From positions 1 to 25,117 of the IMG/VR virus record IMGVR_UViG_3300017714_002608: a DNA stretch of 25,117 bases. One strand, given 5' to 3'. The DNA comes from a virus. The position numbers and the translations under genes were made by a program. Positions 352 to 24,428 of the stretch are shown here, piece after piece (within the stretch, counting starts at the first letter, position 1; each line of letters opens with the position of its first letter). A model generated the notes under the pieces. That model was not told where the DNA came from. It worked only from the letters and a program-made list of their open reading frames with translations, and ran no database searches.

Positions 352-600
352 TCAAAGTTTTTTAACTGTGGATCCAGGTGCTGTTTGTGCTTTAGCAAGA
401 ACCTCATTCCATTCGGGTCTTTGCTTGATCAGTCTGGTTTGCCAATCACTAATTTCAACTCCCAGACCAGGTGAATTATCAGGTGTAAAAAACCTTTCCC
501 AATCTGGATTGTCAATCTTCCACTGATCCCATTCATGAACACTCATCTTCACTTCTTTGGTCTCACCAGTCTCCTTATGCTTAATGGGGTACGTTGCCAT
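352..600 (-). CDS. Conserved small phage protein (FmdB/zinc-ribbon-like length, no cysteines)
   Basis: An 82-aa protein starting MATYPIKHKETGETKEV. I chose the ATG at 600 because it overlaps the thyX stop as TAATG, which suggests translational coupling; an in-frame ATG three codons earlier would extend into thyX. The opening, a short beta strand then KxTGE then a stretch ending in W-D-Q-W, recalls small proteins found beside thyX and phoH in other T4-like cyanophages. Those are sometimes annotated as zinc-ribbon or FmdB-like regulators, but this copy has no cysteine and so cannot form a zinc ribbon. It is acidic to neutral, soluble and has no signal peptide. Function unknown. Confidence 0.75.
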   Translation of the reverse strand: MATYPIKHKETGETKEVKMSVHEWDQWKIDNPDWERFFTPDNSPGLGVEISDWQTRLIKQRPEWNEVLAKAQTAPGSTVKKL

Positions 601-1235
601 TACTTCCACTCCAGTGCTTCTGATATGATCGGGAACTGCTCAATGAAGATGGCACGAATGTCTCCAGCAAGTTCCATGTGTTCTTTTTGTGTACCATTAG
701 CGGTACGCAAATCCAAATAATGTGCCCATGACCGAACATTTCCGCTCATGTAGAGTCTAGTTTGTGTGTTTTGTGGGAGCACAAAACGAGCACATTCCTT
801 TGCCACACCCTTGTCAAGCAGGGCATTATAGACTTCAAGACTCTGTTGAAAGTGATTCTCAATCATCGCTTCCAAGTATGCTTTATCGCGTGGATTAATA
901 TCATCAATAGAGTTTTGACGATTCTTTGTATCCTGACGACGAAGATCTGGAATGGGAATTTCTAATTGAAGTTCCTTACTATCAGCATAGCGTTGTGAAA
1001 ACTGTTGATATGTAAATGAACGGTGCCTCAGCACTTGAGTTGCCACTGCCAGTGATGTATTTAGTTCCACTGTCATGAACGCATGCTCAAAAATACTCCA
1101 ATGACGATGCTTAATACAATACTTTAGGAGTCCAGCAAAACTATCGTTATCCTGGTTCTTAGGGTTTGAAACACGGGCACAGTATGCAATTTGCTTCTCC
1201 GCATCGGGAGTAACACTGATAAGTTTTGCGCTCAT
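600..1235 (-). CDS. thyX: Flavin-dependent thymidylate synthase ThyX
   Basis: A 211-aa protein, normal for ThyX. It makes dTMP from dUMP using FAD, NADPH and methylene-tetrahydrofolate, supplying thymidine for phage DNA replication. The ThyX signature RHRX7S appears as RHRSFTYQQFS at residues 70-80, followed by QRY. The C-terminal substrate-binding region reads ARFVLP (149-154) and NVRSWAHYLDLR (166-177), then an acidic EHMELAGDIR helix. The ATG at 1235 lies immediately after the stop of the upstream gene, with no gap, and the stop overlaps the next gene as TAATG. All expected catalytic features are present. ThyX is a common auxiliary gene in marine cyanophages. Confidence 0.96.
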   Translation of the reverse strand: MSAKLISVTPDAEKQIAYCARVSNPKNQDNDSFAGLLKYCIKHRHWSIFEHAFMTVELNTSLAVATQVLRHRSFTYQQFSQRYADSKELQLEIPIPDLRRQDTKNRQNSIDDINPRDKAYLEAMIENHFQQSLEVYNALLDKGVAKECARFVLPQNTQTRLYMSGNVRSWAHYLDLRTANGTQKEHMELAGDIRAIFIEQFPIISEALEWK

Positions 1236-6338: not shown

Positions 6339-7994
6339 TCAAAGATTGGATTTAAACAACCTCTTATTCTCAAAAAACCATAAGTAATCGAGCAAAGAGG
6401 AGCATAATGTATTCAGAGCATCCTCTGGCGCTTCTACCAAAGGTTCACCTGCTAAATTAAAACTTGTGTTTAGTAAGATACCATGCCCTGTTATATTTTT
6501 AAACTCTAGGAGAAGGTCATGTAAGAAATGATCTGAATTTACGGTTTGAATTCTACAAGTACCATCAACATGAGTTACACCAGGAATTATATCAGATATC
6601 ACAGGAAAGCAAGATGTCATGTGTGGATTTGGAATTACATTGTCAAAGTATAAGTGAGCATCAGACTCTAGAACCATAGCAGCAAAGGGTCTATACCACT
6701 CCCTCTTCTTTATCTTGTTCACTATGTCCTTTGCCTCTGGATTAAGAGCATTGAATAGTATAGATCTATTTCCCAATGCCCTCTGACCCGCCTCTGCCTG
6801 CCCGTAGAAGACCGCTACAGATCGATTCTTAGATAAGAGTATAGCAACATCTTTTATCGATGCTCTAATGACTTTACAGTCTTTGTGTGCAACTGGGGCA
6901 TGATGAAGAACTCCATGATAACTCGTAGTTACTTCAGGATAAATCTTCATGTCTTTAGTTTTGCATCGATATGTATATAAGCAAGTACCAATTGACAAAT
7001 TGCTATCATCACATACAGGATCAAAATAAAAATTTATATCAGGATATTTTTGCAACAACTCATAATTGGTGATGATATTCATAGCATATCCACCACTGAT
7101 ACAAACATTTTTTATACCAGTAAGGGAGACATACTTATCAACAATGTCTATGACTTGCTCTTGACACTGGCGTTGAACTTCATGACAAAAATTAGCAAAT
7201 GGTTGATAATTATCCTCAGTCATTTGTAACATACTGGATGAATCATATGCCTCTGTAAACAGTTGTCTCAACAGTTTAGGATAGTCCTTAAAGTATTGTT
7301 TTATATTCTTATAAACATCCTCACCCCTCAAGTTAAAGTTTGGAATTGATTTACCATATGAAGACAGTCCCATTGCCTTGCCACAATTATCTGGGTCAGA
7401 TCCTATCGCTATTGCAGCACAATTATAAAGATTACCAATATCTATTAGTCCATGATAAATTTTATGCATCTCAAAATCAACATCCTGCTTCGTCTTCATG
7501 CATACACTAGTATTATCATCAAGTTTAGACATGTATCTTTTATATAATGGTTTAAATCTATGTGGATATGAAACCTCATAAACACTAGTGCATTCATATG
7601 CCTCTACGGGTTTATTATCCACACCTCTAAGAAAAGCTCCCGCAGAATCAATAGTTATCACTAAAGATTTTTTAAACCCACTAGCATAAAAAGCATGTGC
7701 TGCATGAAATAAATGATGATGACCTTCAGGTTCCACCATAGTACAACTTGGTGCATAACTCAGAAGTTCATAATCTTGTCTAATCTTTACCTCTTTAGAT
7801 TCACCATTAGAAAAAAGTAAGTAATCAAGATCATAAAATAAATTATTTTTCCTTGCTACCTCTATCAATACATCATAATTGTTGTCATGTTTTACTTTAG
7901 TATATCTCTCAGACTTAAAATAAGTATCAACCACACCATCCTTTACGACACATAGTGATGCATCATGGCTACTACTTATACTCATTATTTTCAT
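6339..7994 (-). CDS. Carbamoyltransferase (NodU/TobZ/CmcH family), full length
   Basis: A 551-aa protein with both domains. The Kae1-like N-terminal domain shows SHDASLC (9-15), SERYTKVKHD (28-37), the metal-binding HHxxHAA motif as HHLFHAA (93-99), ITIDSAG (113-119) and CISGGYAMN (298-306). The YrdC-like C-terminal domain shows GQAEAGQRALGNRSI (398-412), KREWYRPFA (430-438), HVDGTCRIQTV (475-485) and NTSFNLAGEPLV (509-520). Family members move a carbamoyl group from carbamoyl phosphate through carbamoyl-AMP to a sugar hydroxyl. It differs from the 16955 copy by Gln for Pro in GQRALG. It is not contiguous with the sugar cassette, being separated by a virion gene, and its 5' end abuts the divergent bilin reductase. 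Acceptor unknown. Confidence 0.93.
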   Translation of the reverse strand: MKIMSISSSHDASLCVVKDGVVDTYFKSERYTKVKHDNNYDVLIEVARKNNLFYDLDYLLFSNGESKEVKIRQDYELLSYAPSCTMVEPEGHHHLFHAAHAFYASGFKKSLVITIDSAGAFLRGVDNKPVEAYECTSVYEVSYPHRFKPLYKRYMSKLDDNTSVCMKTKQDVDFEMHKIYHGLIDIGNLYNCAAIAIGSDPDNCGKAMGLSSYGKSIPNFNLRGEDVYKNIKQYFKDYPKLLRQLFTEAYDSSSMLQMTEDNYQPFANFCHEVQRQCQEQVIDIVDKYVSLTGIKNVCISGGYAMNIITNYELLQKYPDINFYFDPVCDDSNLSIGTCLYTYRCKTKDMKIYPEVTTSYHGVLHHAPVAHKDCKVIRASIKDVAILLSKNRSVAVFYGQAEAGQRALGNRSILFNALNPEAKDIVNKIKKREWYRPFAAMVLESDAHLYFDNVIPNPHMTSCFPVISDIIPGVTHVDGTCRIQTVNSDHFLHDLLLEFKNITGHGILLNTSFNLAGEPLVEAPEDALNTLCSSLLDYLWFFENKRLFKSNL

Positions 7995-8002: not shown

Positions 8003-8022
8003 CCTATTATTGAATACTTGTG

Positions 8023-8670
8023 ATGGAAGTAAGGGATAAATTATTTGAGATATATGGTGACCTAACTCCTGTCGAACTTCCTAATTGGTTATCCCCTACC
8101 ATAGAAGATAAGAAATCTTGTATAAAATCATATGTATGGAGGACTGATCGTCTCCGCAGAATAAGACTTTGTGAGTTGCACATATCTGGAAAGTTTATTG
8201 CCGAGTCTCTTGTTATATATCCAGACTTCCAATATGAAGCGCCAATATTTGGAACGGAATATGTAAAATGTGGTAGCGTAAAATATTTTGGTACAATTGA
8301 TTTTCACCCACTAAAGGGTGGCAATAATTATCAAGAAAAGTATATCATACCATACCTAGGAGATCAACAAGATAGAATAAAAAATAAATCAAAAATTTAT
8401 GATTTAGATACATACTTCTCAAAAAAACTCTGGATCAAATCAGATCAACAAGATTTTTATGGAGAGTACATAGATAAATTAGATTTATATCTCACAAGAT
8501 ATAAAGAATGCATAAAAAAATGTGAGCAAAATCATACTGCTCACATCTTCCAAAAAGGTTATGATCACCACCTATCATACACAGATCCTGCATACGGAAT
8601 TATAAAGTCATACTATACAAAGGAATTTGCTAGAAAATATATCAACAACTTCTTATTTGACCTTGCCTAG
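8023..8670 (+). CDS. Ferredoxin-dependent bilin reductase (PebB/PebS/HY2 family)
   Basis: A 215-aa protein; cyanobacterial and phage bilin reductases are about 230-250 aa. It reduces a biliverdin-type tetrapyrrole using ferredoxin electrons to make a phycobilin. The family pattern is visible: SYVWRTDRLRRIRLCELH (36-53), YPDFQYEAPIFGTEYV (66-81), IDFHP (92-96) and the C-terminal YTDPAYGIIKSYYTKEFARKYINNFLF (from 186). Asp93 and Asp188 fall where the two catalytic aspartates of PebS lie, by memory alignment. The N-terminal half reads more like PebB/HY2 than PcyA, but the product cannot be fixed. It is one of only two plus-strand genes. There is no clear ribosome-binding site; a GTG one codon upstream is possible. 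The stop shares CTAG with the converging gene. Confidence 0.88.
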   Translation: MEVRDKLFEIYGDLTPVELPNWLSPTIEDKKSCIKSYVWRTDRLRRIRLCELHISGKFIAESLVIYPDFQYEAPIFGTEYVKCGSVKYFGTIDFHPLKGGNNYQEKYIIPYLGDQQDRIKNKSKIYDLDTYFSKKLWIKSDQQDFYGEYIDKLDLYLTRYKECIKKCEQNHTAHIFQKGYDHHLSYTDPAYGIIKSYYTKEFARKYINNFLFDLA

Positions 8671-10553: not shown

Positions 10554-11357
10554 ATGATCATTTTAACTGGGTCCTCTGGATTCATTGGTAGACATTTTGC
10601 AGAGAGACTAAAAGATGATGTAATGTTAGTAGACCAAGAAGATGCTTGGAGACTATTTAGAGATTTTGACGAGTGGAATAAAGTAGATCTAGTTATTCAT
10701 CAAGGTGCAATATCTTCTACTACAGAAAAAGATTTACAAAAATTGTGGCACTTTAATGTAGGATTCTCATGTGCTCTCTTAAATAAAGCGATTGTATATG
10801 AGTTCCCAATTAAGTATGCATCGTCCGCATCAGTCTATGGGAATCAAAGCGTATATCAAAAATCTAAAACCTACAATCCTCTCAATCAATATGCAATCTC
10901 AAAGTTGCAGATAGATTATACTGTTATGGATAACATAGATCAGTTCTCCTTAGTTCAAGGATTCAGATACTTTAATGTGTATGGAAGTGGAGAAGAAGGT
11001 AAAGGCAATCAAGCAAGTCCAGTAAGTAAATTCACTAAAGAAGTTAAAGAAACTGGAGAATTAAATTTATTTAGTGGATCTAATAAATTCCTAAGAGATT
11101 TTATATGTGTAGATGATGTTGTAGATATTGTTCTGCACAACAATGCAGGTAGTGGCATTTATGATCTCGGCACTGGATCTCCAGTATCATTCCAGCACAT
11201 TGCAGAACTGGTAACAAAAAAAGAGGGTGGCAAAATTAATACCATCCCATTTCCTGATCACTTGAAGGGCAAATATCAGTCCTACACATGTGCAGATATG
11301 TCATGGGCAGGACAATATAAATTTAAGACTGTTGAGGAATATCTACAAGTAAATTAA
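10554..11357 (+). CDS. hldD: ADP-L-glycero-D-manno-heptose 6-epimerase (HldD-like)
   Basis: A 267-aa short-chain-type epimerase; cellular HldD is about 310 aa. HldD converts ADP-D-glycero-beta-D-manno-heptose to the L-glycero form, the donor used in LPS core synthesis. Visible are the nucleotide-binding GSSGFIG (6-12), SSASVYG (90-96), catalytic Y113xxxK117 (YAISK), RYFNVYG (138-144), GKGNQAS (149-155, where HldD has its second catalytic lysine), RDFICVDD (181-188) and the HldD-like IPFPDHLKGKYQSYTCAD (231-248). The last stretch separates HldD from general UDP-sugar epimerases. It is alone on the plus strand and converges on the sugar operon, overlapping its last gene by 35 bases. It is shortened mostly in loops before and after the Tyr-Lys pair. 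Confidence 0.86.
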   Translation: MIILTGSSGFIGRHFAERLKDDVMLVDQEDAWRLFRDFDEWNKVDLVIHQGAISSTTEKDLQKLWHFNVGFSCALLNKAIVYEFPIKYASSASVYGNQSVYQKSKTYNPLNQYAISKLQIDYTVMDNIDQFSLVQGFRYFNVYGSGEEGKGNQASPVSKFTKEVKETGELNLFSGSNKFLRDFICVDDVVDIVLHNNAGSGIYDLGTGSPVSFQHIAELVTKKEGGKINTIPFPDHLKGKYQSYTCADMSWAGQYKFKTVEEYLQVN

Positions 11358-11937
11358 AACTAACTGTTCTACGCTCTGAAATACATTTTTGTTTGACCAC
11401 CCAATGCATCAGTTTACTATCAAACAAAAATGTTTTACCATTAACTTGTTCTGGTCTGTGATGCTCATTGTTCCAAATAAATTCCAAAGAATGTAAATCA
11501 TACCAGTCAGATTCCTTTGGCAAATCTAAAATAGTAATCCCCGATATATGCCCTGCATGGTCATGTGGAGGGGTATAATTATTTTCATAGTATCTATTTA
11601 CCCAGGCATCAACAAATAAATCAGAAAACTGAGAGGTATTAAAGTATACTTGTGCGCTGTCAACATTATGTACTTTTAAATACTCTACCGCAGCACCAGC
11701 GATAAACTTTGTAAATCCAATATCATCCAGTTGTTGACCAGTCATGTATATAATTTCAAATCCTCTAGACAACAAGTCAGGAAAACCCTCAACCTTACTG
11801 TACTTGGAAGAGCAAATATCTTTAGTCTCCTGATTCATATCATCAACAAAAGTATTAAACTTCCTGAGAACATTATCAGGACACATGCATTCTAAAATGT
11901 ATGGACCAAAAGGTCTTGTCAAGTCAATATCGTACAT
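11323..11937 (-). CDS. Putative Fe(II)/2-oxoglutarate oxygenase
   Basis: A 204-aa protein. The metal-binding region reads YTPPHDHAGHISGITIL (121-137), with His125 and His127 where HxD/HxH is expected and the PPHxHxGxxSG form of the 2OG-FeII_Oxy_5 type. The distal His is in LFDSKLMHWV (His178) and the 2-oxoglutarate Arg is in ERRTVSFNLLV (Arg189 or 190). An HxH instead of HxD facial triad is unusual but occurs in this phage group. It is the last gene of the minus-strand sugar operon, starting as TAATG with the cupin gene, so it was probably recruited to hydroxylate or otherwise oxidise the product of that pathway. Substrate unknown. Confidence 0.72.
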   Translation of the reverse strand: MYDIDLTRPFGPYILECMCPDNVLRKFNTFVDDMNQETKDICSSKYSKVEGFPDLLSRGFEIIYMTGQQLDDIGFTKFIAGAAVEYLKVHNVDSAQVYFNTSQFSDLFVDAWVNRYYENNYTPPHDHAGHISGITILDLPKESDWYDLHSLEFIWNNEHHRPEQVNGKTFLFDSKLMHWVVKQKCISERRTVSFNLLVDIPQQS

Positions 11938-12290
11938 TAATCACCTTTAATAATTCTATAACTATCAGAATCAAAATGTTCAGTAGAGAATTCAAATAGT
12001 TCTGAATCTTCTAATGCAACCATTTGATGCTTCAATCCAACTGGGATATGAAATTTATCTCCAGGTTCTAAGACAAGTAGATCAGCAGTTGCTAGATCAT
12101 TATCCCATCCATGATACACAGATAACAATCCACTTTGAAGATAAAATGTTTCATCCTTCACTTTATGATAATGCCAAGAGCATCTAAAACCTTTCTTAAA
12201 GAATAAAAGTTTGCCACAATAATCTTCGGTATTACAAATCCACTTCTCATATCCCCAACCCTTAGGAACATATTTAATTGAAGAAGTCAT
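11937..12290 (-). CDS. Single-domain cupin (sugar-phosphate isomerase type)
   Basis: A 117-aa protein starting MTSSIKYVPKGWGYEKWI. The first cupin motif is WHYHKVKDETFYLQSG (39-54), with metal ligands His40, His42 and Glu47; the second is LEPGDKFHIPVGLKHQM (74-90), with His88. The PKGWGYE opening plus KDETFY is typical of small mannose-6-phosphate isomerase-like cupins found in capsule and LPS clusters. It could isomerise a sugar phosphate or bind a sugar nucleotide. The ATG at 12290 overlaps the end of the phosphatase gene by 17 bases. It forms TAATG with the next gene. Fold is firm; reaction is not. Confidence 0.8.
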   Translation of the reverse strand: MTSSIKYVPKGWGYEKWICNTEDYCGKLLFFKKGFRCSWHYHKVKDETFYLQSGLLSVYHGWDNDLATADLLVLEPGDKFHIPVGLKHQMVALEDSELFEFSTEHFDSDSYRIIKGD

Positions 12291-12621
12291 TAGAATTAAC
12301 CGCTTTATCATCTATGTAGTAATCAGCAGAGGGTTTACCCATAATAAGTTCGTGATACTTACATCCCCACATCTTTAACTGACACTTGGTAAGTTCTTCC
12401 CAACGATGACCAGCAAGAGTAGCATTTCCCTTGTATGTCCCCATACCTCTTGCAGTAAAGTATTTAATATAATGACCTTCATCATAAAGTTTATTTACTG
12501 CTTCAATATTTTTTGTGATTGGAGAAGATGCCTCATACTTACATGTCTTACATAGACTGTCCTGCTCAGCAATTACACCATCAATATCAACAACATATGT
12601 TTTAGATTCAAATACTGTCAT
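12274..12621 (-). CDS. HAD-type phosphatase, capsule-biosynthesis-like
   Basis: A 115-aa minimal HAD phosphatase. Motif I is VVDIDGVIA (Asp12 nucleophile, Asp14 acid), motif II is YFTAR (Thr56), motif III lysine is in MGKPSA (Lys96) and motif IV is YYIDDKA (Asp104, Asp105). PITKNIEAVNKLYDEGH is the usual helix between I and II. Small HADs of this type sit in polysaccharide and heptose clusters. It may supply the GmhB step (D-glycero-D-manno-heptose bisphosphate to 1-phosphate), but it is shorter than GmhB (about 190 aa) and lacks an obvious zinc site; Cys24 and Cys27 form one CxxC only. The start overlaps the upstream stop as ATGA. Confidence 0.8.
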   Translation of the reverse strand: MTVFESKTYVVDIDGVIAEQDSLCKTCKYEASSPITKNIEAVNKLYDEGHYIKYFTARGMGTYKGNATLAGHRWEELTKCQLKMWGCKYHELIMGKPSADYYIDDKAVNSNDFFN

Positions 12622-13715
12622 CTCTCTTTACCCAGGTATAAGGTTTTTAATTTATGTCTAGAAGTAGATTTAGTAGCAAAATAGTAATTTATTTTTGCCA
12701 ACCCTATGGACGTACCAGCATCTGTTGATATTGGTTCCACATATAGTTTAACACCCTTCGGTAAGATTTTCAAATACTCATAATTAGCAACACAATTCAA
12801 AGCACAACCACCAGTAAGAACTATGTTGGTCTCACCAGTCACTTCTAATGTTCTGAGAATTAAGTTTGACATATATCTTTCAAAATCTTTTTGAACTCTA
12901 TAAGCAAGGTTGGAGAACTTAACTTTAAGTTCATCATCAAGATCTATAAAGTTATTCACACCTCTCGGATATCTTACATATTCATATGGCAAAAACGTAA
13001 GTCCAAACCTATTTCTACAAAATAAATTAGTGTCTAAAGTAAAGTCATCATTAACAAAAGGTTTTATGTTTTCATCTTCCACACCATATGAAGATAACCC
13101 CATCAATTTACCAGAACCAAAGTCACCAAATCCAAAGTACTTTGATAGTGAATGATAAACCATACCAATACCAAAAGACAAATCATACTTATCAGCATCT
13201 AAGTATGTCGGAGTTAATCCAACACTATGCTTTTTGAATTGACTTGGATATGTACAAGAGAATATTGTCTCAACTTCTTGAACTTCTTTTTTATTTGGTA
13301 GAGGATTACCCATCCCATCGACAACTAAAACTGCTGCTCTAGCAAATCCAGAATTGTAAAACCCACAAGCAGCATGGAAGTCATGATGCAGTTCATAAAG
13401 CTCATATTGAATATCCTCAGAATCTCTTACGGATATTTCTTTTGCATATCTCTTTGATAATATACGAGTAAAAAACTCTGCATGATTTTTTAAATAATCT
13501 TTGTTATGTGGTTCATACAAACCAGATACTTGAATTTTCTTGTGTATATCTGGAGATATATCTATTTCCATGACTGATGTCAACGGATCAACGTCATGCT
13601 TGATTCCACTGTATCTCTCTTCCTCAATAAACCAATCAATCTCTCCACCAGTAACCTGACAAATAGATGCATCATGACTTACATGAGCACCAAGATAAGA
13701 GTACTTCTTCAACAT
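12618..13715 (-). CDS. Carbamoyltransferase with only the Kae1-like domain
   Basis: A 365-aa protein matching the N-terminal domain of the NodU/TobZ family: SHDASIC (13-19), EEERYSGIKHD (31-41), the HHxxHAA metal site as HHDFHAA (110-116), LVVDGMG (130-136), KLMGLSSYG (203-211) and LTGGCALNCVANY (300-312). It stops at LKTLYLGKER, the position equivalent to KLENLYTGLSYM in the full-length copy at 16955, that is, exactly at the domain border. The YrdC-like domain with GxxEAGxRALGNRSI, which makes carbamoyl-AMP, is absent. It is a clean gene with ATGTTGA and ATGA overlaps with both neighbours and a GGAG before its start, not a decaying fragment. It may depend on carbamoyl-AMP from a full-length partner. 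Confidence 0.84.
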   Translation of the reverse strand: MLKKYSYLGAHVSHDASICQVTGGEIDWFIEEERYSGIKHDVDPLTSVMEIDISPDIHKKIQVSGLYEPHNKDYLKNHAEFFTRILSKRYAKEISVRDSEDIQYELYELHHDFHAACGFYNSGFARAAVLVVDGMGNPLPNKKEVQEVETIFSCTYPSQFKKHSVGLTPTYLDADKYDLSFGIGMVYHSLSKYFGFGDFGSGKLMGLSSYGVEDENIKPFVNDDFTLDTNLFCRNRFGLTFLPYEYVRYPRGVNNFIDLDDELKVKFSNLAYRVQKDFERYMSNLILRTLEVTGETNIVLTGGCALNCVANYEYLKILPKGVKLYVEPISTDAGTSIGLAKINYYFATKSTSRHKLKTLYLGKER

Positions 13716-14488
13716 AAGATCATCTCCACATCATTATCTGTTAAGGTATAACAACCATAATTTTGCACTGCAATTGCAGATGCTCTATTTGCAATTCTAA
13801 TAGCAGTGGTGATGTCCTGATACTGTAAGAAAGAATATGCCAAAGCTGCTAAGAATGTATCCCCAGCACCAACAACATCAAATACCTTCACCTTCTCAGC
13901 AGGATATACATTTCCTTGATGCACCACACCATTCTCACCCAAAGTAACAATCAGTTGATTTTCATCAGGTTTCACTGTCAATTTATTATACTCCCTTTGA
14001 TTTATCTTAAAGAACACATTTGGATAAGTAAAGAGTTCTGTCTTCTTTGTATCAATAAAAACAGGACCATCAAAATTTTGACAAAAGACTTCTAAATCCT
14101 TTTTAGATAAGTATCCCTTATCATAGTCAGATATTACAACAGCATCATACTGCATATGAACGAATGCAGATTTAACTTCAGATACTTTAAGAGAATCTAT
14201 ATCCTCTTCTTCATCTATCCTCAATAGTTGTTGGTTACTACTACTATCAACAATTCTTCTTTTAATAATTTGTTTTTTATTTGTGATATGATTTACACTG
14301 ACACCAAAAGACTCTAGATTTGCCTTAACATTGGCAGACATGCCCTTTGAAGTTATTGTTTTACCATACTTCAATACAGGGATCGGTGCTTCTGGACTAA
14401 TTCTTTCTACATCACCGTAGACATACTCATCATTACACGTCTCCCCTAGTAATAATATCTTGAATTGTTTTTGTTGTTGCATAATCAT
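13709..14488 (-). CDS. hldA: D-glycero-beta-D-manno-heptose 7-phosphate kinase (PfkB family)
   Basis: A 259-aa protein corresponding to the N-terminal kinase half of bifunctional HldE (about 315 aa there). It phosphorylates heptose 7-phosphate at position 1. Visible are ILLLGETCNDEYVYGDVERISPEAPIPVLK (11-40), where RISPEAP is a strong HldE/RfaE signature, a modified GMSANVKANLESFG (49-62), QQLLRID (86-92), SDYDKG (120-125) and the PfkB GAGDTF (207-212, catalytic Asp210). About 20 residues seen in HldE between the NQRE segment and the last strands are missing. The start (ATG 14488 or 14482) overlaps the upstream adenylyltransferase gene by about 55 bases, the longest overlap in the operon. That could be the remnant of a split HldE fusion. 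Confidence 0.87.
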   Translation of the reverse strand: MIMQQQKQFKILLLGETCNDEYVYGDVERISPEAPIPVLKYGKTITSKGMSANVKANLESFGVSVNHITNKKQIIKRRIVDSSSNQQLLRIDEEEDIDSLKVSEVKSAFVHMQYDAVVISDYDKGYLSKKDLEVFCQNFDGPVFIDTKKTELFTYPNVFFKINQREYNKLTVKPDENQLIVTLGENGVVHQGNVYPAEKVKVFDVVGAGDTFLAALAYSFLQYQDITTAIRIANRASAIAVQNYGCYTLTDNDVEMILC

Positions 14489-14840
14489 TTATTCTACTAA
14501 AGAATACTAACTCAGAAACGTACATGGATCCAATAACAGACTTACCTCGCCAATCAGATCCAACAACCATTACATCGGGTTGAATAAAATTAATCAGTGC
14601 TTCTAATTCAAAATCAGAATCAAACAAATGTACTTTATGTACTGATTTTAAATTTTCCAAGAAGAACTTTCTTTCTTCTTGATTATATATCGGTCTAGAT
14701 GGTCCCTTCTTTTCAGACACCCTACGATCAGTATCTATGCCTACGTAAACTTTATCACCAAGAGACTTTGCAAAGTTTAAAAGTTCTAAATGTCCACGAT
14801 GAAGTAGATCAAATGTACCATTGACAAAAACTTTTCTCAT
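14433..14840 (-). CDS. hldC: Heptose 1-phosphate adenylyltransferase (HldC/HldE C-terminal type)
   Basis: A 135-aa cytidylyltransferase-fold enzyme. FVNGTFDLLHRGHLELL (5-21) contains the HxGH nucleotide-binding motif (His14, His17). KGPSRPIYNQEER (45-57), DVMVVGSDWRGKSVIGS (89-105) and YATTKTIQDI (120-129) correspond to the ISTxK-like end of RfaE-type proteins. It joins AMP from ATP to heptose 1-phosphate, giving ADP-heptose. In most bacteria it is fused behind the kinase; here it is a separate gene placed before the kinase. The start overlaps the upstream stop as TCATGA. A glycerol-3-phosphate cytidylyltransferase (TagD) is the main alternative, but the adjacent heptose kinase favours HldC. 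Confidence 0.87.
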   Translation of the reverse strand: MRKVFVNGTFDLLHRGHLELLNFAKSLGDKVYVGIDTDRRVSEKKGPSRPIYNQEERKFFLENLKSVHKVHLFDSDFELEALINFIQPDVMVVGSDWRGKSVIGSMYVSELVFFSRINDYATTKTIQDIITRGDV

Positions 14841-15457
14841 GAAAAAATTCTCTGCGTGTCGTGTTCAGATAACATAAAACTAAAGACCCATAAAATTCTA
14901 TTTGTTTTACCAATGATCTCATCAACCTGATGCTCTGCAGAAGATACAATATACATCAAAAGATCTGTATCATTAACTTCCCAGGGTTCACCATCAATAA
15001 TAGTGACACCACCAGATTCTGGTTTTTGAGTTATAAAGTTACAATGAACGGTATGAGTTTCTTCAAACCATACAGGATCTATATGTGGATGAACTGTTCC
15101 ACCCTCAAAACTAATCTCTGTAATTATACCATTCTTTCCAACAGGTGACAATCCAAAATTTCTAAAGTCAAAAGTTTCAACAATACTACTCTGTATCTCA
15201 TGAACCACATCTGGGTACTTAAAATTTGGATTAGATGATGCTGCGAAGTTGCCATGATCCTGATTCTCTATAAAGGGATTCATGTAATTCACCAGAGGAT
15301 TGGCAAACCTAGTTGTTAATTTTGTATCCCTAATAAAATTAGAATCCATTCTAGGATCCATAAAGTGATCACTCTTATAATTTTGTGTGGTCCACAAATT
15401 TAATTGATCCCTTTGATCCTCAGTGATAAAATCTTTGAATGCTTTTACTAATTTCAT
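14837..15457 (-). CDS. Putative Fe(II)/2-oxoglutarate oxygenase
   Basis: A 206-aa protein. ISFEGGTVHPHIDPVWFEETHTVHCNFI contains the facial triad HxD (His125, Asp127). GGVTIIDGEPWEVNDTDLLMYIVSSAEHQVDEI supplies the distal His176. TNRILWVFSF carries the 2-oxoglutarate Arg187. The layout resembles aspartyl/asparaginyl hydroxylase-like and phage 2OG oxygenases. It lies between the halogenase and heptose adenylyltransferase genes with ATGA overlaps on both sides, so it is almost certainly co-translated with them and probably acts in the same pathway. Which carbon it oxidises is unknown. Confidence 0.78.
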   Translation of the reverse strand: MKLVKAFKDFITEDQRDQLNLWTTQNYKSDHFMDPRMDSNFIRDTKLTTRFANPLVNYMNPFIENQDHGNFAASSNPNFKYPDVVHEIQSSIVETFDFRNFGLSPVGKNGIITEISFEGGTVHPHIDPVWFEETHTVHCNFITQKPESGGVTIIDGEPWEVNDTDLLMYIVSSAEHQVDEIIGKTNRILWVFSFMLSEHDTQRIFS

Positions 15458-16968
15458 TTTACACCATGACCAGAATAATAATCTATCCCCAAACTATCAC
15501 CCCTTTTTATTTTTATTAAGCACTGCTGAATCCACTCTCGATGTAGGATTGACTTCTTATGCTTTTCTATTTCCTCATTATAAAAATTTTCTACAAGAAT
15601 CCTTGCTTGATCAGTATCAACACCATCATTTTTTGGTTCAACTAATTCCTTATCTAAAAATTGAAGAATGAACATTGCCCAATTTTCTCCCTGGAACATA
15701 AAGTCACCCGAGACTGGAAGTGTATATGGATTATTCAAAGTCTCATTCTCATAAAACTTTTGAGTCTCTGACATTTTAAAAGTATCTTGAACATACTTCC
15801 AAAACTTTCCAGTCTCTCTCTTATTGTGAGAGTAATGCATACTTACAAAATCAATACAGTCTTCATAGAAATGAATCATCTTCATATTGAATAGTTCTGC
15901 ATCAAGATCATTATAGCAATGTCCCTTTACTGCTTCTACAATCTCAATTGCACCTGCACATATCAATGCAATCCCAGTGCTTTCTAATGGTTCAATAAAT
16001 CCACTAGACAATCCATTACAACAAACATTATCAACCCAAGAATTTTTATGGTAATAAGGTGTCCAATTTAAAACCTTTAGTGTATCCCTATTAACTCTAC
16101 CATCCCAATAGTCAACGAAGAAATCTTTAGCTTCATCAATATCTGTAACAGATTTATTAAATACTAGTCCTGTCCCAATTCTACTTTGATTTGGAGTCTT
16201 CCAAATCCAACCATGTTCTACAGCAGAGCATGTTGTATATGGTCTCATCTCAGAATCCATATCAATATACTGAACAGGACCAGCAATAGCAGTGTCGCAA
16301 AATAATCTACCAGTACAATCCACACTATCTGGTTCTGACCCCAATAGTCTTCTCCAACCAGTACAGTCAATAAACAAATCAGATTCAATTACCTGTCCAT
16401 CCTCAAGAGTGATAGAATTTAATCCCCCTTTTGAATTTCTATCAACATCTTTTACACCACATTTAACAAAACTAATTTTATTCGCAATCCTTTCCTTTAT
16501 ATAATTAACTAACTTGCCACAGTCAATATGATATGAATAGGTTGATATATTATCTGGATCAACTTTATTCTCTGTTACTCCTGGATTATATAATGCACAA
16601 GCATGAGTAAAATATTCAAGATCTTTATTCTTAGTCCAAAGATTTAAAAGATTAGTTTCAAGGAAATTAAATTCGGGGAAAGCAAATGGATGCCATAAGT
16701 TTTGACCTTCTTTTTGCCAGTCTTCAAAAAGAATACCACCTTTAAATGTAGCATCAATTTTACCTAACCAATCTTCAATTTCAAATCCACATCCCACCAT
16801 AAACTGTTTGAAGCTAAGAATCGTCGCTTCACCAACCCCCACTGCCTCACTCTCAGATTTATCAATGAGAACTATTTGTGTACGTTTTAATTTTGCCTGC
16901 AAAAAAGCAGCGGTCATCCATCCAGATGTACCGCCACCAACAACAACAATACGATTAATTGGTCTCAT
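15454..16968 (-). CDS. Flavin-dependent tryptophan-type halogenase
   Basis: A 504-aa protein, close to the usual about 530 aa. The FAD-binding GGGTSGWMTAA (11-21) and VGVGEATI (43-50) are intact. The catalytic lysine matches DATFKGG (Lys76, PrnA Lys79 equivalent). The WxWxIP motif that blocks monooxygenation is GWIWKTP (253-258), with Ile to Thr. The catalytic glutamate lies in EPLESTGIALI (Glu329). These enzymes add chlorine or bromine to indole or phenol rings using reduced flavin, so a flavin reductase must come from the host. None is in the window. It sits inside the sugar operon between carbamoyltransferase and oxygenase genes. Halogenase homologues are known in other cyanophages with unknown substrates. 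Activity as hydroxylase or on another aromatic group is possible. Confidence 0.93.
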   Translation of the reverse strand: MRPINRIVVVGGGTSGWMTAAFLQAKLKRTQIVLIDKSESEAVGVGEATILSFKQFMVGCGFEIEDWLGKIDATFKGGILFEDWQKEGQNLWHPFAFPEFNFLETNLLNLWTKNKDLEYFTHACALYNPGVTENKVDPDNISTYSYHIDCGKLVNYIKERIANKISFVKCGVKDVDRNSKGGLNSITLEDGQVIESDLFIDCTGWRRLLGSEPDSVDCTGRLFCDTAIAGPVQYIDMDSEMRPYTTCSAVEHGWIWKTPNQSRIGTGLVFNKSVTDIDEAKDFFVDYWDGRVNRDTLKVLNWTPYYHKNSWVDNVCCNGLSSGFIEPLESTGIALICAGAIEIVEAVKGHCYNDLDAELFNMKMIHFYEDCIDFVSMHYSHNKRETGKFWKYVQDTFKMSETQKFYENETLNNPYTLPVSGDFMFQGENWAMFILQFLDKELVEPKNDGVDTDQARILVENFYNEEIEKHKKSILHREWIQQCLIKIKRGDSLGIDYYSGHGVK

Positions 16969-18766: not shown

Positions 18767-19906
18767 TCACTTAAGTTTTTGAAGAATATCTACTGTGTTT
18801 GCTTTGGATTTACCAAAACCTTTGTTAGTTACATCAAATTTAGACGTATCTGCTGATCTTAAATCTAACTGCGGCAACTTACTAATTTCTTGTTGTTTGT
18901 TTCCAGGTGATGCTGAACAAGATGAATAATCTTGTTGTGGAATAGTATAATTTCCAGTATATCCAACGGATTTACCCATCCTATTTTTGACCGACTTGAC
19001 AACAGAATCAATCTGTTCTTCACTCATCTCCATTGCTTCATCGTTAAGTCTATCTTTAATCTCATCGATTGCAACTCTGATTGGAGAATAAACTCTTTTA
19101 CCCTCTCCAATGTCAATGATATCAAAGTCTTTATGGTCGGGATAAGAAATATTTACAGGGAATGTTGAACCTGTAACTACAGTAGCAGTCTTATCAAGTG
19201 CTCTTGCAATATGCTGACCCATACTATCACACCCAAGAAGATGGTCAGCAGCATTAATAACACCTGCCCAGATTCTCATGTCACTGATCTGAGGTCTAGC
19301 AACTTTATATCTTGCTTTATCTTCATTCTCTTCCAGAGGGAAGTGAATCTCACTCATGATAACGACAGCATATTCTTTCTTCAATTCATTAATGATATTG
19401 ACAATATTATTAACAGAAAAACTCCTAGAAGAAGTATCAATGATAAAGTCTTGTCCCACCTGCTCTATAGATCTACCAAACGGTTGAACTACTAAAACCT
19501 TATCTTTACCTGTCCCTGCTTTTACTTCCTCAACAATATTAAATCCTTGAACTATTTCTGCTTTGTTCAGAACTACAGTTGGTTTAGGAAGTTCTCTTGG
19601 TTCATCAAGTTCATTGATGAGAATATCAAATGCTTGTGCAAGACTACACTCTTGATTGTAATAATGCCAACATCTATAAGGTTCTGGACTAACACATTCT
19701 CTATGCTTAATCTCGTTTTCAAACAAACCCTTATGCCAATTATCAAAAACTTTTGTAGATAAAGTTGGATGACCTTTAAAGAAGTCGGTGCCTCCTTCGC
19801 ATACAATAACAAAATCGTCATGCGTTTCCGCATACTTTTCAAATGCGGGGATAGCACAAATTACTCGACCAGCTCCACCGTTGATGAAGAACGCTTTAGA
19901 CCTCAT
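18767..19906 (-). CDS. GT9-like (heptosyltransferase-type) glycosyltransferase
   Basis: A 379-aa protein. The two-domain GT-B pattern of family GT9 is recognisable: an N-terminal FINGGAGRVICAIPAFEKYAE (7-27, equivalent to the G-D-x-x-x-x-x-P loop of heptosyltransferases), LVVQPFGRS (138-146) and GCDSMGQHIARALDKTATVVTGST (225-248), which matches the D-S-x-x-x-H-x-A-x-A-L nucleotide-sugar site. GT9 enzymes transfer heptose from ADP-heptose, so it is the natural user of the pathway encoded downstream. A Ser/Gln-rich tail after about residue 325 is extra. It is the first gene of the sugar operon, 55 bases after the late box at 19961, with a GAGG before the start. The acceptor is unknown and a related GT-B family cannot be excluded. 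Confidence 0.7.
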   Translation of the reverse strand: MRSKAFFINGGAGRVICAIPAFEKYAETHDDFVIVCEGGTDFFKGHPTLSTKVFDNWHKGLFENEIKHRECVSPEPYRCWHYYNQECSLAQAFDILINELDEPRELPKPTVVLNKAEIVQGFNIVEEVKAGTGKDKVLVVQPFGRSIEQVGQDFIIDTSSRSFSVNNIVNIINELKKEYAVVIMSEIHFPLEENEDKARYKVARPQISDMRIWAGVINAADHLLGCDSMGQHIARALDKTATVVTGSTFPVNISYPDHKDFDIIDIGEGKRVYSPIRVAIDEIKDRLNDEAMEMSEEQIDSVVKSVKNRMGKSVGYTGNYTIPQQDYSSCSASPGNKQQEISKLPQLDLRSADTSKFDVTNKGFGKSKANTVDILQKLK

Positions 19907-22003: not shown

Positions 22004-22011
22004 TATTTATA
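22004..22011 (-). promoter_or_regulatory. T4-type late promoter box
   Basis: TATAAATA on the minus strand, a perfect T4 late box, overlapping the stop codon of the 22007-22795 gene and 40 bases before the gene at 21964. Confidence 0.75.
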
Positions 22012-22795
22012 GGAAACTAATCTTAACTAATCCAGGACCGCCAGTGGCTCCCTTGGCGCAGCAGCTACTACCACCACAATAGGTAGTCATACCACCCTGT
22101 CCACCGTGTCCATATGGAGATGTCCAGCAACCACAACGCTGCCAACACTCATGGATTTGAGCTTGAACTTGTGTACCAATAAATGGTGCAGGAGTTGGAG
22201 CGTGTGCTTGACAATGGCAATGACACTCAGCGATGTGACCATTGAATGCACCTCTATGGTTACCCATTCCAAAGTCACCACCATGAGCATTAGGATCCAC
22301 ACAACAGCGACCCCAGTCAGAGTGGCAAGCAGTGTTCCAAGAACCATTAGCACAACCACCAGTGCCACCGAGAGCACAGAAGTTAGACAGTCCAGTACCA
22401 TTAACGTAAGATGAACATCCATCACACGCCACACATTCAACACTCTCGCATGGATAAGTACCACCAGCGCAAACTGTGTATGCATCGCCAGCAGTTACTG
22501 TAATAGTTTTGCTGTTATAGTATCCACCTTGAGCACCAGCAAAGTGCTGACATCTACCAGTAGAACATGCGCCATGTCCATTGCCACCTGCGCCCCACAT
22601 TTCAAAATGAACTTTTCTTACACCTGCAGGAATAGTCCAAAGACAGCAACATCCTGTTGAGCAACGATTAGGAGATCCAAAAATCCACTTGACACACCAA
22701 GTGTCAAACACTCCAGTAGCAACAGCAGATTGTGGGATACTGCCATCAACTATGGATGCTGTTAAGATTTTTTTATAGCTAGAGTAAGATGCCAT
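22007..22795 (-). CDS. Cys/Gly-rich adhesin-like virion protein (paralogue 1)
   Basis: A 262-aa protein with about 26 cysteines (10 percent), often in CCC, CxC or CC clusters. Order: MASYSSYKKIL... start, STGCCCLWTIPAGVRKVHFEMWGAGGNGHGAC (47-77), the glycine-rich fold opening seen in phage Gly-rich tip domains, then QHFAGAQGGYYNSKTI, ECVACDGCSSYVNG, GNHRGAF, HCHC, ECWQRCGCW and a C-terminal GGQGGMTTYCGGSSCC...GGPGLVKISFL. There is no signal peptide. It is one of three tandem paralogues, about 60 percent similar by eye, in the tail-gene region, so I infer a particle-surface adhesin. The many cysteines may form a disulfide or metal-bound network once outside the cell. A late box precedes it. 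Confidence 0.8.
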   Translation of the reverse strand: MASYSSYKKILTASIVDGSIPQSAVATGVFDTWCVKWIFGSPNRCSTGCCCLWTIPAGVRKVHFEMWGAGGNGHGACSTGRCQHFAGAQGGYYNSKTITVTAGDAYTVCAGGTYPCESVECVACDGCSSYVNGTGLSNFCALGGTGGCANGSWNTACHSDWGRCCVDPNAHGGDFGMGNHRGAFNGHIAECHCHCQAHAPTPAPFIGTQVQAQIHECWQRCGCWTSPYGHGGQGGMTTYCGGSSCCAKGATGGPGLVKISFL

Positions 22796-22821
22796 CTCTC
22801 GTTAAACCTCGTTATTAATAG

Positions 22822-22829
22822 TATTTATC
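22822..22829 (-). promoter_or_regulatory. T4-type late promoter box
   Basis: GATAAATA on the minus strand, 27 bases before the ATG at 22795, overlapping the end of the 22828-23628 gene. Confidence 0.65.
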
Positions 22830-23628
22830 AATAGTATGTAATTTTGACCAATCCTGGTCCGCCCATACCACCAGTACCACAACAGCTGCTGCCACCACAG
22901 TAAGATGTCATAGCACTCTGACCACCATGACCATATGGAACAGTCCAGCAACCACAACGCATCCAACAATAATTGATGGCCATTTGAACTTCAGTACCAA
23001 TTCTTGGTGCAGAAGTTGATCTTGTGGTAGTTTTCCTACAATGGCACTGTCCCTGACCGAACGTCCAGTCTGCAGCACCGAATGCACCTCTATGACTGAT
23101 AGTACCAAAGTCTCCGCCGTTGGCTCCTGCCTGTAAGCAGCAAGAATTTTCTGAGTGACATGCTGTTGACCAACTAGTGTTAGCACATCCACCAACACCA
23201 CCAACAGCACAGAAGTTGCTTAAATTTGCTCCATTGACATAAGATGCACAACCAACACATCCAGTACATTCTATTCTACAACAGTTACCATTTCCAGCAG
23301 AACAAACTGTATAAGTCGAACCACTAGTAGTAGTAATATACTTAGAGTTATATGCTCCACCTTGAGCACCAGCATAGTGATGACATCTACTAGTAGAACA
23401 TGCACCATTACCAGATCCACCAGCACCCCAAAGTTCAAAGAATAGATTAGTTACACCATCAGGAACAGTCCAAAGACAGCAACATCCTGCTGAACATGCG
23501 TTAGGAGATCCATAAACCCACTTGACACCAAAGGTCTTCCTAGCATCAGGATCTAGCTGAGTAGATCCAATAGATCCATCTGAGAACGATGATCCATTGA
23601 CCTTCTTATAACTTGCATACGATGCCAT
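22828..23628 (-). CDS. Cys/Gly-rich adhesin-like virion protein (paralogue 2)
   Basis: A 266-aa paralogue with about 25 cysteines in almost the same positions as its neighbours: CSAGCCCLWTVPDGVTNLFFELWGAGGSGNGAC, RCHHYAGAQGGAYNS, NCCRIECTGCVGCASYVNGANLSNFCAVGG, SCC, QCHC, YCWMRCGCWTVPYGHGGQSAM and SYCGGSSCC. It differs from paralogue 1 in a longer variable loop (residues about 186-205, AADWTFGQGQCHCRKTTTRSTSAP), the place where the three diverge most. The ribosome-binding site GGAG follows directly on the stop codon of the 23643 gene (TAAGGAG), so it is probably coupled to it. Target of binding unknown. Confidence 0.8.
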   Translation of the reverse strand: MASYASYKKVNGSSFSDGSIGSTQLDPDARKTFGVKWVYGSPNACSAGCCCLWTVPDGVTNLFFELWGAGGSGNGACSTSRCHHYAGAQGGAYNSKYITTTSGSTYTVCSAGNGNCCRIECTGCVGCASYVNGANLSNFCAVGGVGGCANTSWSTACHSENSCCLQAGANGGDFGTISHRGAFGAADWTFGQGQCHCRKTTTRSTSAPRIGTEVQMAINYCWMRCGCWTVPYGHGGQSAMTSYCGGSSCCGTGGMGGPGLVKITYY

Positions 23629-23642
23629 TTTTAGATGTCTCC

Positions 23643-24428
23643 TTAGAAATAAGTAATTTTAACAACACCAGAACCACCAGTAGTTCCTCTACCACAACAG
23701 TTAGATCCGCAATAAGTAGTCATACCACCTTGTCCACCAGATGTATAGGGAACGTTCTGACAACCACAACGCATCCAACACTCAGTGAGTTCACCACTAA
23801 CTCCCGAACTTCCGAAGAATGGTGCTCCAGAAGAACACTCGGTATGACGATAGCAGTGACAGTTAAATGAACCAGAGAATGAACCAGGGTGACCACCCAT
23901 TGCAAAGTCACTACTATAAGCAGTTGGGTTTACACAACAAGGACCCCAATCGGAGTTACACATCGTGTTCCAAGAACCGTTAGAACAACCTCCCTTTCCT
24001 CCAATAGCACAAAAGTTACTGAGGTTGCAACCATTTATATAAGATCCGCACCCGTTGCAGGCAAGGCACTCAACAGACTGACAAGGGTAAACGCCCCCAG
24101 CGCAAATAGTGTAGGTCCAAGCGTCTTGAACACTAATAGTTTTAGTTGTGTAGTAACCACCACCAGCGCCAGCATAGTGCTGACATCTGTTATTAACGCA
24201 CAATCCGTGACCATTGCCACCTGCGCCCCACAATTCAAAAGTAACTCTTCTGACACCAGTAGGAACCGTCCAAAGGCAACAGCAACCTGGTGCTTCTGGA
24301 CCTAAGCAACCACGAATCCATTTAACGGCATAATTTTTAAAGGCAGAGGGGTCAAGTTTAGCATCGGTGATAGCACCTGCTGGTAAACTTGCCCCACTTA
24401 CTTTTTTGTAACTTGCGTAGGTAGCCAT
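23643..24428 (-). CDS. Cys/Gly-rich adhesin-like virion protein (paralogue 3)
   Basis: A 261-aa paralogue with about 26 cysteines: PGCCCLWTVPTGVRRVTFELWGAGGNGHGLC, RCQHYAGAGGGYYTT, ECLACNGCGSYINGCNLSNFCAIGG, PCC, NCHC, ECWMRCGC and TYCGSNCCGRGTTGGSGVVKITYF. It is the first of the three in transcription order. The ECWMRCGC motif is followed by QNVPYTSGGQ where the others have W-[ST]-x-PYGHGG. An overlapping pair of late boxes lies 19-25 bases upstream. A terminator-like hairpin separates it from the fibre gene before it. The protein probably ends a fibre or forms a tip, as Gly-rich domains do. Confidence 0.8.
   Translation of the reverse strand: MATYASYKKVSGASLPAGAITDAKLDPSAFKNYAVKWIRGCLGPEAPGCCCLWTVPTGVRRVTFELWGAGGNGHGLCVNNRCQHYAGAGGGYYTTKTISVQDAWTYTICAGGVYPCQSVECLACNGCGSYINGCNLSNFCAIGGKGGCSNGSWNTMCNSDWGPCCVNPTAYSSDFAMGGHPGSFSGSFNCHCYRHTECSSGAPFFGSSGVSGELTECWMRCGCQNVPYTSGGQGGMTTYCGSNCCGRGTTGGSGVVKITYF

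Follow-up and report, generated by a model that had tools for sequence, protein, structure and literature searches.

Can a carbamoyltransferase that ends at its domain border still work, and what would supply it with carbamoyl-AMP? The question is raised by a gene in the 25,117-base virus record IMGVR_UViG_3300017714_002608 (the window, meaning the whole stretch of DNA that was analysed), whose encoded proteins are similar to those of T4-like marine cyanophages. The gene lies at 12618-13715 on the minus strand, starts with an ATG at 13715, stops at 12618-12620 and encodes 365 aa. It shares 4 nt (12618-12621, ATGA) with the next gene and 7 nt (13709-13715) with the preceding kinase gene, in agreement with the initial annotation, which had described it as intact, in frame and overlapped on both sides. 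We call such genes N-only, as they encode the N domain of the enzyme (PF02543) without the C domain (PF16861). The features of the window that bear on it are these.

6339..7994, minus strand: second, distant full-length carbamoyltransferase, 551 aa; PF02543 + PF16861; separate clade, with an N-only relative in L014
10554..11357, plus strand: NAD-dependent epimerase, closest to ADP-heptose 6-epimerase (HldD); PF01370; TIGR02197 214 bits, below the cut-off of 274.6
11323..11937, minus strand: 2OG-Fe(II) oxygenase-like; PF13759
11937..12311, minus strand: cupin; PF07883 27.1 bits, just below the cut-off of 27.2; phrog_7851
12274..12621, minus strand: small HAD phosphatase-like protein; TIGR01689 (capsule biosynthesis phosphatase) 38 bits, below the cut-off of 162; PHROG label phosphoheptose isomerase
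12618..13715, minus strand: N-only (Kae1-like, Carbam_trans_N) carbamoyltransferase, 365 aa; PF02543 only; AlphaFold2 pLDDT 90.9; invariant catalytic residues
13709..14488, minus strand: HldE/RfaE domain-I-like heptose-7-phosphate kinase (PfkB); PF00294; TIGR02198 155.9 bits, below the cut-off of 345
14433..14840, minus strand: HldE/RfaE domain-II-like heptose-1-phosphate nucleotidyltransferase; PF01467; TIGR02199 104.9 bits, below the cut-off of 181.5
14837..15457, minus strand: cassette protein, putatively 2OG-oxygenase-like (HxD...H, by eye only); no Pfam or PHROG match
15454..16968, minus strand: tryptophan-halogenase-family flavoprotein; PF04820 298 bits
16955..18757, minus strand: full-length carbamoyltransferase, 600 aa, proposed carbamoyl-AMP maker; serving itself as well as the N-only protein; PF02543 + PF16861 (423-588)
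18767..19906, minus strand: cassette protein phrog_8954, heptosyltransferase-like by eye only

The NCBIfam scores behind the heptose assignments are under the curated cut-offs, and the HAD protein (12274..12621) may have a GmhB-like role. A GT9 heptosyltransferase role, suspected from sequence for 18767-19906, found no Pfam, NCBIfam or PDB-sequence support and was dropped; Pfam and PDB-sequence searches confirmed no glycosyltransferase in the cassette. The tryptophan-halogenase-family gene recurs inside the heptose cassette of many relatives; L010, L013 and L022 are among those that have two ORFs of this family. The cassette sits among tail-fibre-related genes, and three tandem similar Gly/Cys-rich proteins of ~260 aa, the first of them phrog_4205, are encoded beside tail-fibre genes at 22007-24428 (minus strand). 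The 551-aa copy (6339-7994) was absent from the initial annotation; adjoining its gene at 8020-8670 (plus strand) is an auxiliary photosynthetic-pigment gene, a ferredoxin-dependent bilin reductase (PF05996, 95 bits). The gene at 600-1235 (minus strand) we take to encode a ThyX-like thymidylate synthase, from an RHRxxSxxxxSxR-like motif. No stand-alone C domain was found in the window.

The sole Pfam match in the 365-aa protein is PF02543 (residues 80-340, 72 bits, above the cut-off); PF16861, the YrdC-like C-terminal domain, was not found in it by Pfam search, and the protein therefore resembles the transferase half rather than a complete class III (TobZ-type) member. A profile of the lost domain, run against the six frames downstream of the gene in the window, gave a best E of 0.1, which is noise (control on the full-length gene, 5e-106), bearing out the earlier statement that no frameshifted C-terminal domain follows. 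When closed N-only genes were searched (52, counting those of split pairs), the lost domain was found within 1.2 kb downstream of two: a frame-broken full-length gene (L100) and the tandem split pair of phage S-SCSM1. The absence of a downstream remnant, in the window and at all but two of the closed N-only genes, rules out a frameshift or a cut gene as the cause of the short protein.

Structure prediction of the protein alone, which had been proposed with the initial annotation, gave a confident AlphaFold2 model (mean pLDDT 90.9, pTM 0.90) when built from an alignment of 31 N-only proteins. The model covers 0-370 of the 571-residue TobZ chain (Z 29.2, rmsd 2.9, 320 residues); ending at TobZ residue 370 and matching PF02543 only, the protein does stop at the domain border, as had been claimed. 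Scores against TobZ, NovN, GdmN and VtdB are Z 24-29, and against the stand-alone Kae1 5jmv_C Z 20.2 over 275 residues. Since the model aligns both to the N part of TobZ and to stand-alone Kae1, the predicted Kae1-like fold is complete. Identity in the structural alignments is 25% to TobZ and 12-17% to proteins of TsaD/Kae1 type; the closest solved sequences are TobZ-type, and TIGR00329 (TsaD/Kae1/Qri7 family) gave no match at E ≤ 0.01. A model of the 600-aa enzyme built by the same procedure covers TobZ 0-570.

The metal ligands of GdmN are reported to be H133, H137, D156 and D333 and its general base H27. In the full-length partner the base histidine is H12, and a PDB title describes the H14N variant of TobZ in crystals with the intermediate. 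The N-only equivalents of the GdmN residues by alignment are H110, H114, D133, D332 and the base H14, all invariant in the 31 aligned N-only proteins and in 32/32 N-only rows of the tree set; the HHDFHAA motif pointed out in the initial annotation occupies residues 110-116. The N-domains of full-length enzymes have 32 conserved positions, and N-only proteins keep 30 of these at ≥80%, which argues against a broad relaxation after the covalent partner domain was lost. The N-only proteins have 75 positions conserved at ≥93%; full-length enzymes reach a comparable frequency (≥80%) at only 45 of them, and this signature is largely common to full-length paralogs of the same gene slot. KxR and SxN are YrdC-type motifs (PMC9654439); as K467xR469 and S556xN558 they are invariant in 35/35 full-length rows, and they belong to the domain absent from the N-only protein.

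Other single-domain members in phages, which the initial annotation had advised looking for, turned out to be many. Scanning viral contigs yielded 80 loci, and a phage collection contained 49 records with a match, 15 of which were fetched. N-only genes in a phage heptose cassette number 49 in 44 records, the window included; this count leaves out the split-pair records L008, L089, L091 and L098 and the frame-broken full-length L100_4141, and the weak N-type ORFs L057 and L083 (E about 1e-11 to 1e-12) are excluded from all counts. Named phages with an N-only gene are S-SSM7, S-SSM6a and Sf-FS3. Four records have several such genes (three in L039, two each in L014, L020 and L032), the second one of L020 being cut by the locus end, so that it may belong to a longer gene. 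The form persists among proteins 29-69% identical to that of the window. Across 14 hand-picked pairs of close relatives dN/dS was 0.13-0.53 in every pair, and by this measure the N-only genes show purifying selection in the pairs tested. The L064 contig carries its N-only gene in two pieces.

Candidate cellular N-only proteins were rejected, both strong matches in metagenome-assembled genomes (MAGs) being phage DNA: L099 is 83% identical over 100% to Sf-FS3, and L100 76% over 72% to S-SSM7. Both contigs had been filed under bacterial genomes (Rhodobacteraceae and Flavobacteriales) but are of cyanophage origin and probably misbinned. In the scan of cellular genomes 23 of 26 loci are full-length, and the other three are these two contigs and one ORF cut by a contig end. 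Titles and abstract openings in the literature yielded no earlier description of a single-domain or split carbamoyltransferase of such a kind; the S-SSM7 N-only gene is already public under the label Nol-like carbamoyltransferase. Sullivan et al. 2010 (PMC3037559) give one genome column with three carbamoyltransferase genes, of 1803, 1536 and 1575 bp. The column, by our own assignment, fits the three full-length genes of S-SSM7, so that the N-only gene is apparently not among the entries given there.

Domain content was traced on trees of the N-domain. From 174 rows, removal of near-identical sequences left 121, of which 103 went into a quick tree, and 67 of the 103 into a careful one; the 18 rows left out of the 121 were distant bacterial sequences, near-duplicates and the frame-broken L100_4141. 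On the careful tree the full-length and N-only states must have changed into one another four times or more, four of the changes being forced by starred branches; the bootstrap trees give four changes throughout their 5-95% range, and the quick tree also gives four. A single clean N-only clade is thus ruled out. The window gene falls in a clade made up of 19 N-only rows (100/97), whose sister clade mixes six full-length with four N-only rows; the N-only L039_2642 groups beside upstream full-length partners, and the N-only L014_10145 beside the 551-aa type. As the tree is unrooted, changes are counted and not losses; we infer that they were losses because the two-domain form is the bacterial one (23/26 loci).

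Gene order is in line with repeated change on the tree. In 42 loci the slot between the kinase and HAD genes holds an N-only gene (20 loci), a full-length gene (9) or no carbamoyltransferase (13). In nine of the 13 empty cases (L005, L023, L024, L025, L027, L030, L033, L040 and L044) an N-only gene stands ahead of the nucleotidyltransferase gene instead, where it follows a full-length gene wherever the contig reaches. In the phages P-SSM2, S-CAM1 and S-CAM3 the cassette contains just one full-length enzyme. The rarity of remnants, the dN/dS values, the invariant catalytic residues and the at least four changes of state together make it well supported that the domain loss is functional, as had been proposed, and that it is old and not a mutation or frameshift.

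Of the 44 N-only records, 39 have an ORF with the YrdC-like domain on the same strand, upstream of the first N-only gene and at ≤5.2 kb from it, and such an ORF is present in 34/34 records with at least 3.5 kb of upstream sequence. In the remaining five (L012, L015, L035, L040 and L066) the contig edge comes after 0 to 2,735 bases, and the L012 contig has a C domain elsewhere. For comparison, among loci fetched through a full-length gene (L057-L088 except L064 and L066, counting the fetched stretch only) a second C-bearing ORF occurs in 3 of 30 (L067, L068 and L087). Whole-record searches found PF16861 in 51 of 55 records, the four without it being short fragments. Across the whole S-SSM7 and Sf-FS3 records there is no separate C-only gene to serve the N-only protein, and the donor there, if phage-encoded, must therefore be a full-length protein. 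In G033 and G034 a C-only ORF and the N partner that belongs to it are present in addition to the cassette. Because the co-occurrence lies inside an inherited cassette, it supports dependence without proving it.

Separate C-only and N-only genes occur naturally in S-RIM44, Sf-FP1, the marine virus AG-345-D19 and S-SCSM1 (two pairs), with a ThyX-like gene just upstream of the split genes in all four. The tandem split enzymes of S-SCSM1 (L089 3395-6998) stand in the order C-N-C-N after the thymidylate synthase gene and are perhaps a DNA-modification version. If these genes are functional, such pairs imply that the halves can work as separate chains. Co-occurrence and split pairs support the suggestion of the initial annotation that the N-only protein may depend on the full-length copy; of its three options, shared carbamoyl-AMP, a heteromer or another substrate, the first two, which are compatible with each other, are favoured over the third.

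Our main reading, to which we give a probability of about two in three, is that the N-only protein is a transferase-only enzyme that is supplied in trans with carbamoyl-AMP by the full-length enzyme encoded in the same operon and uses a heptose-derived sugar as acceptor; we infer the activity, the trans supply and the acceptor. The YrdC-like domain of the 600-aa enzyme would make the carbamoyl-AMP, which the N-only protein would be unable to make, and pass it on in trans, probably by docking or else by diffusion over a short distance, similar to the way in which TsaD is supplied by TsaC. The Kae1-like domain of the N-only protein would bind carbamoyl-AMP and metal and move the carbamoyl group to an acceptor hydroxyl, most likely of a heptose-derived sugar from the cassette. 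A single activating domain could then suffice for carbamoylation at two or more positions, or of two or more sugars. Heptose carbamoylation by WapO of Pseudomonas is a chemical precedent (PMC8005017). Synechococcus WH8102 is listed as the host of Sf-FS3; its LPS is reported to contain neither heptose nor KDO (PMC4515613), and the sugar may therefore decorate the virion rather than the host. Against sharing the intermediate with a separate protein counts the report that in TobZ and HypF it passes an internal channel between the domains (PMC9654439). We hold more tentatively, at somewhat under even odds, the fuller arrangement in which one YrdC-like activator serves several Kae1-only transferases (in L039, as many as three for one full-length copy) by direct docking, yielding multiply carbamoylated virion heptoses.

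The N-only protein could instead be an obligate structural partner, a heteromer with the full-length enzyme whose acceptor site it shapes, its own turnover not being needed. The acceptor site of the GdmN homodimer reportedly uses a loop of the partner monomer, N-only and full-length genes are close together, and in L022-L025, L030-L033 and L042 the N-only frame, taken from stop to stop, shares bases with the end of the full-length frame. However, a purely structural partner would have no need of catalytic residues that are all invariant, and in L039 each full-length gene is accompanied by three different N-only genes; we judge this reading unlikely. Slightly more doubtful is a changed chemistry, independent of the phage full-length enzyme, with another donor, an ATP- or carbamoyl-phosphate-dependent reaction of its own, or host carbamoyl-AMP. 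It would suit the reported binding of ATP, AMP and carbamoyl-AMP by Kae1-like domains themselves and the N-only signature (of 75 positions at ≥93%, 45 as common in full-length enzymes), but that signature is largely shared with full-length paralogs of the slot, N-only forms arose several times, each in phages also holding the C domain, and the cellular scan gave full-length genes at 23/26 loci, the rest being two misbinned phage contigs and a cut ORF. Decay to an inactive leftover after domain loss is very improbable: the gene in two pieces on the L064 contig speaks for it, yet dN/dS is ≤0.53 in 14/14 pairs, the catalytic residues are invariant and the truncated form is kept among proteins 29-69% identical to that of the window.

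Cyanophage carbamoyltransferases are taken as pyrimidine-synthesis genes in PMC9146016 and PMC10436341, and the latter gives one of S-MS29 as pyrBI, aspartate carbamoyltransferase. S-MS29 (L094, 2983-4614) encodes a TobZ-type full-length carbamoyltransferase, and the pyrBI naming looks like a misassignment. Our analysis suggests that cyanophage carbamoyltransferases may belong to sugar modification, at least in heptose cassettes. Repeated loss of the donor domain beside a complete paralog makes the question of a leaky or sharable carbamoyl-AMP channel directly testable, bears on the interconversion of fused and split Kae1/YrdC forms, and is probably a simple case, in marine cyanophages, in which enzymes draw on an unstable intermediate made by a partner.

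Among known systems, the class III O-carbamoyltransferases TobZ, GdmN, NovN and VtdB (PF02543 + PF16861) have the same Kae1-like fold, metal ligands and base, but carry in the same chain the YrdC-like domain that the N-only protein is without. TsaD/Kae1 with TsaC/Sua5, in tRNA t6A synthesis, reportedly keeps transferase and adenylate-maker separate around an unstable intermediate, and the N-only protein has its fold in common (Z about 20); acceptor and acyl group differ, however, the N-only sequence is closer to TobZ, and its donor domain, unlike TsaC, is part of a complete paralog. The phage 5-hydroxymethylcytosine carbamoyltransferase found by MetaGPA (PMC8670742) is likewise of phage TobZ type and uses carbamoyl phosphate and ATP; as reported, it is a 63-kDa full-length enzyme that acts on DNA and is encoded beside thymidylate synthase, whereas the N-only gene lies in a heptose cassette. 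WapO, the Pseudomonas LPS heptose 7-O-carbamoyltransferase (PMC8005017), also puts a carbamoyl group on heptose but is the cell's own LPS core enzyme, and WH8102 LPS is described as lacking heptose (PMC4515613). The split Nol-like enzymes of S-RIM44, S-SCSM1 and Sf-FP1 likewise have the N domain as its own gene, but with an adjacent C-only gene of their own, near thyX, in contrast to the window's N-only gene, which has no C-only partner. The N-only family is a variant of the class III carbamoyltransferases, probably functional as the transferase half.
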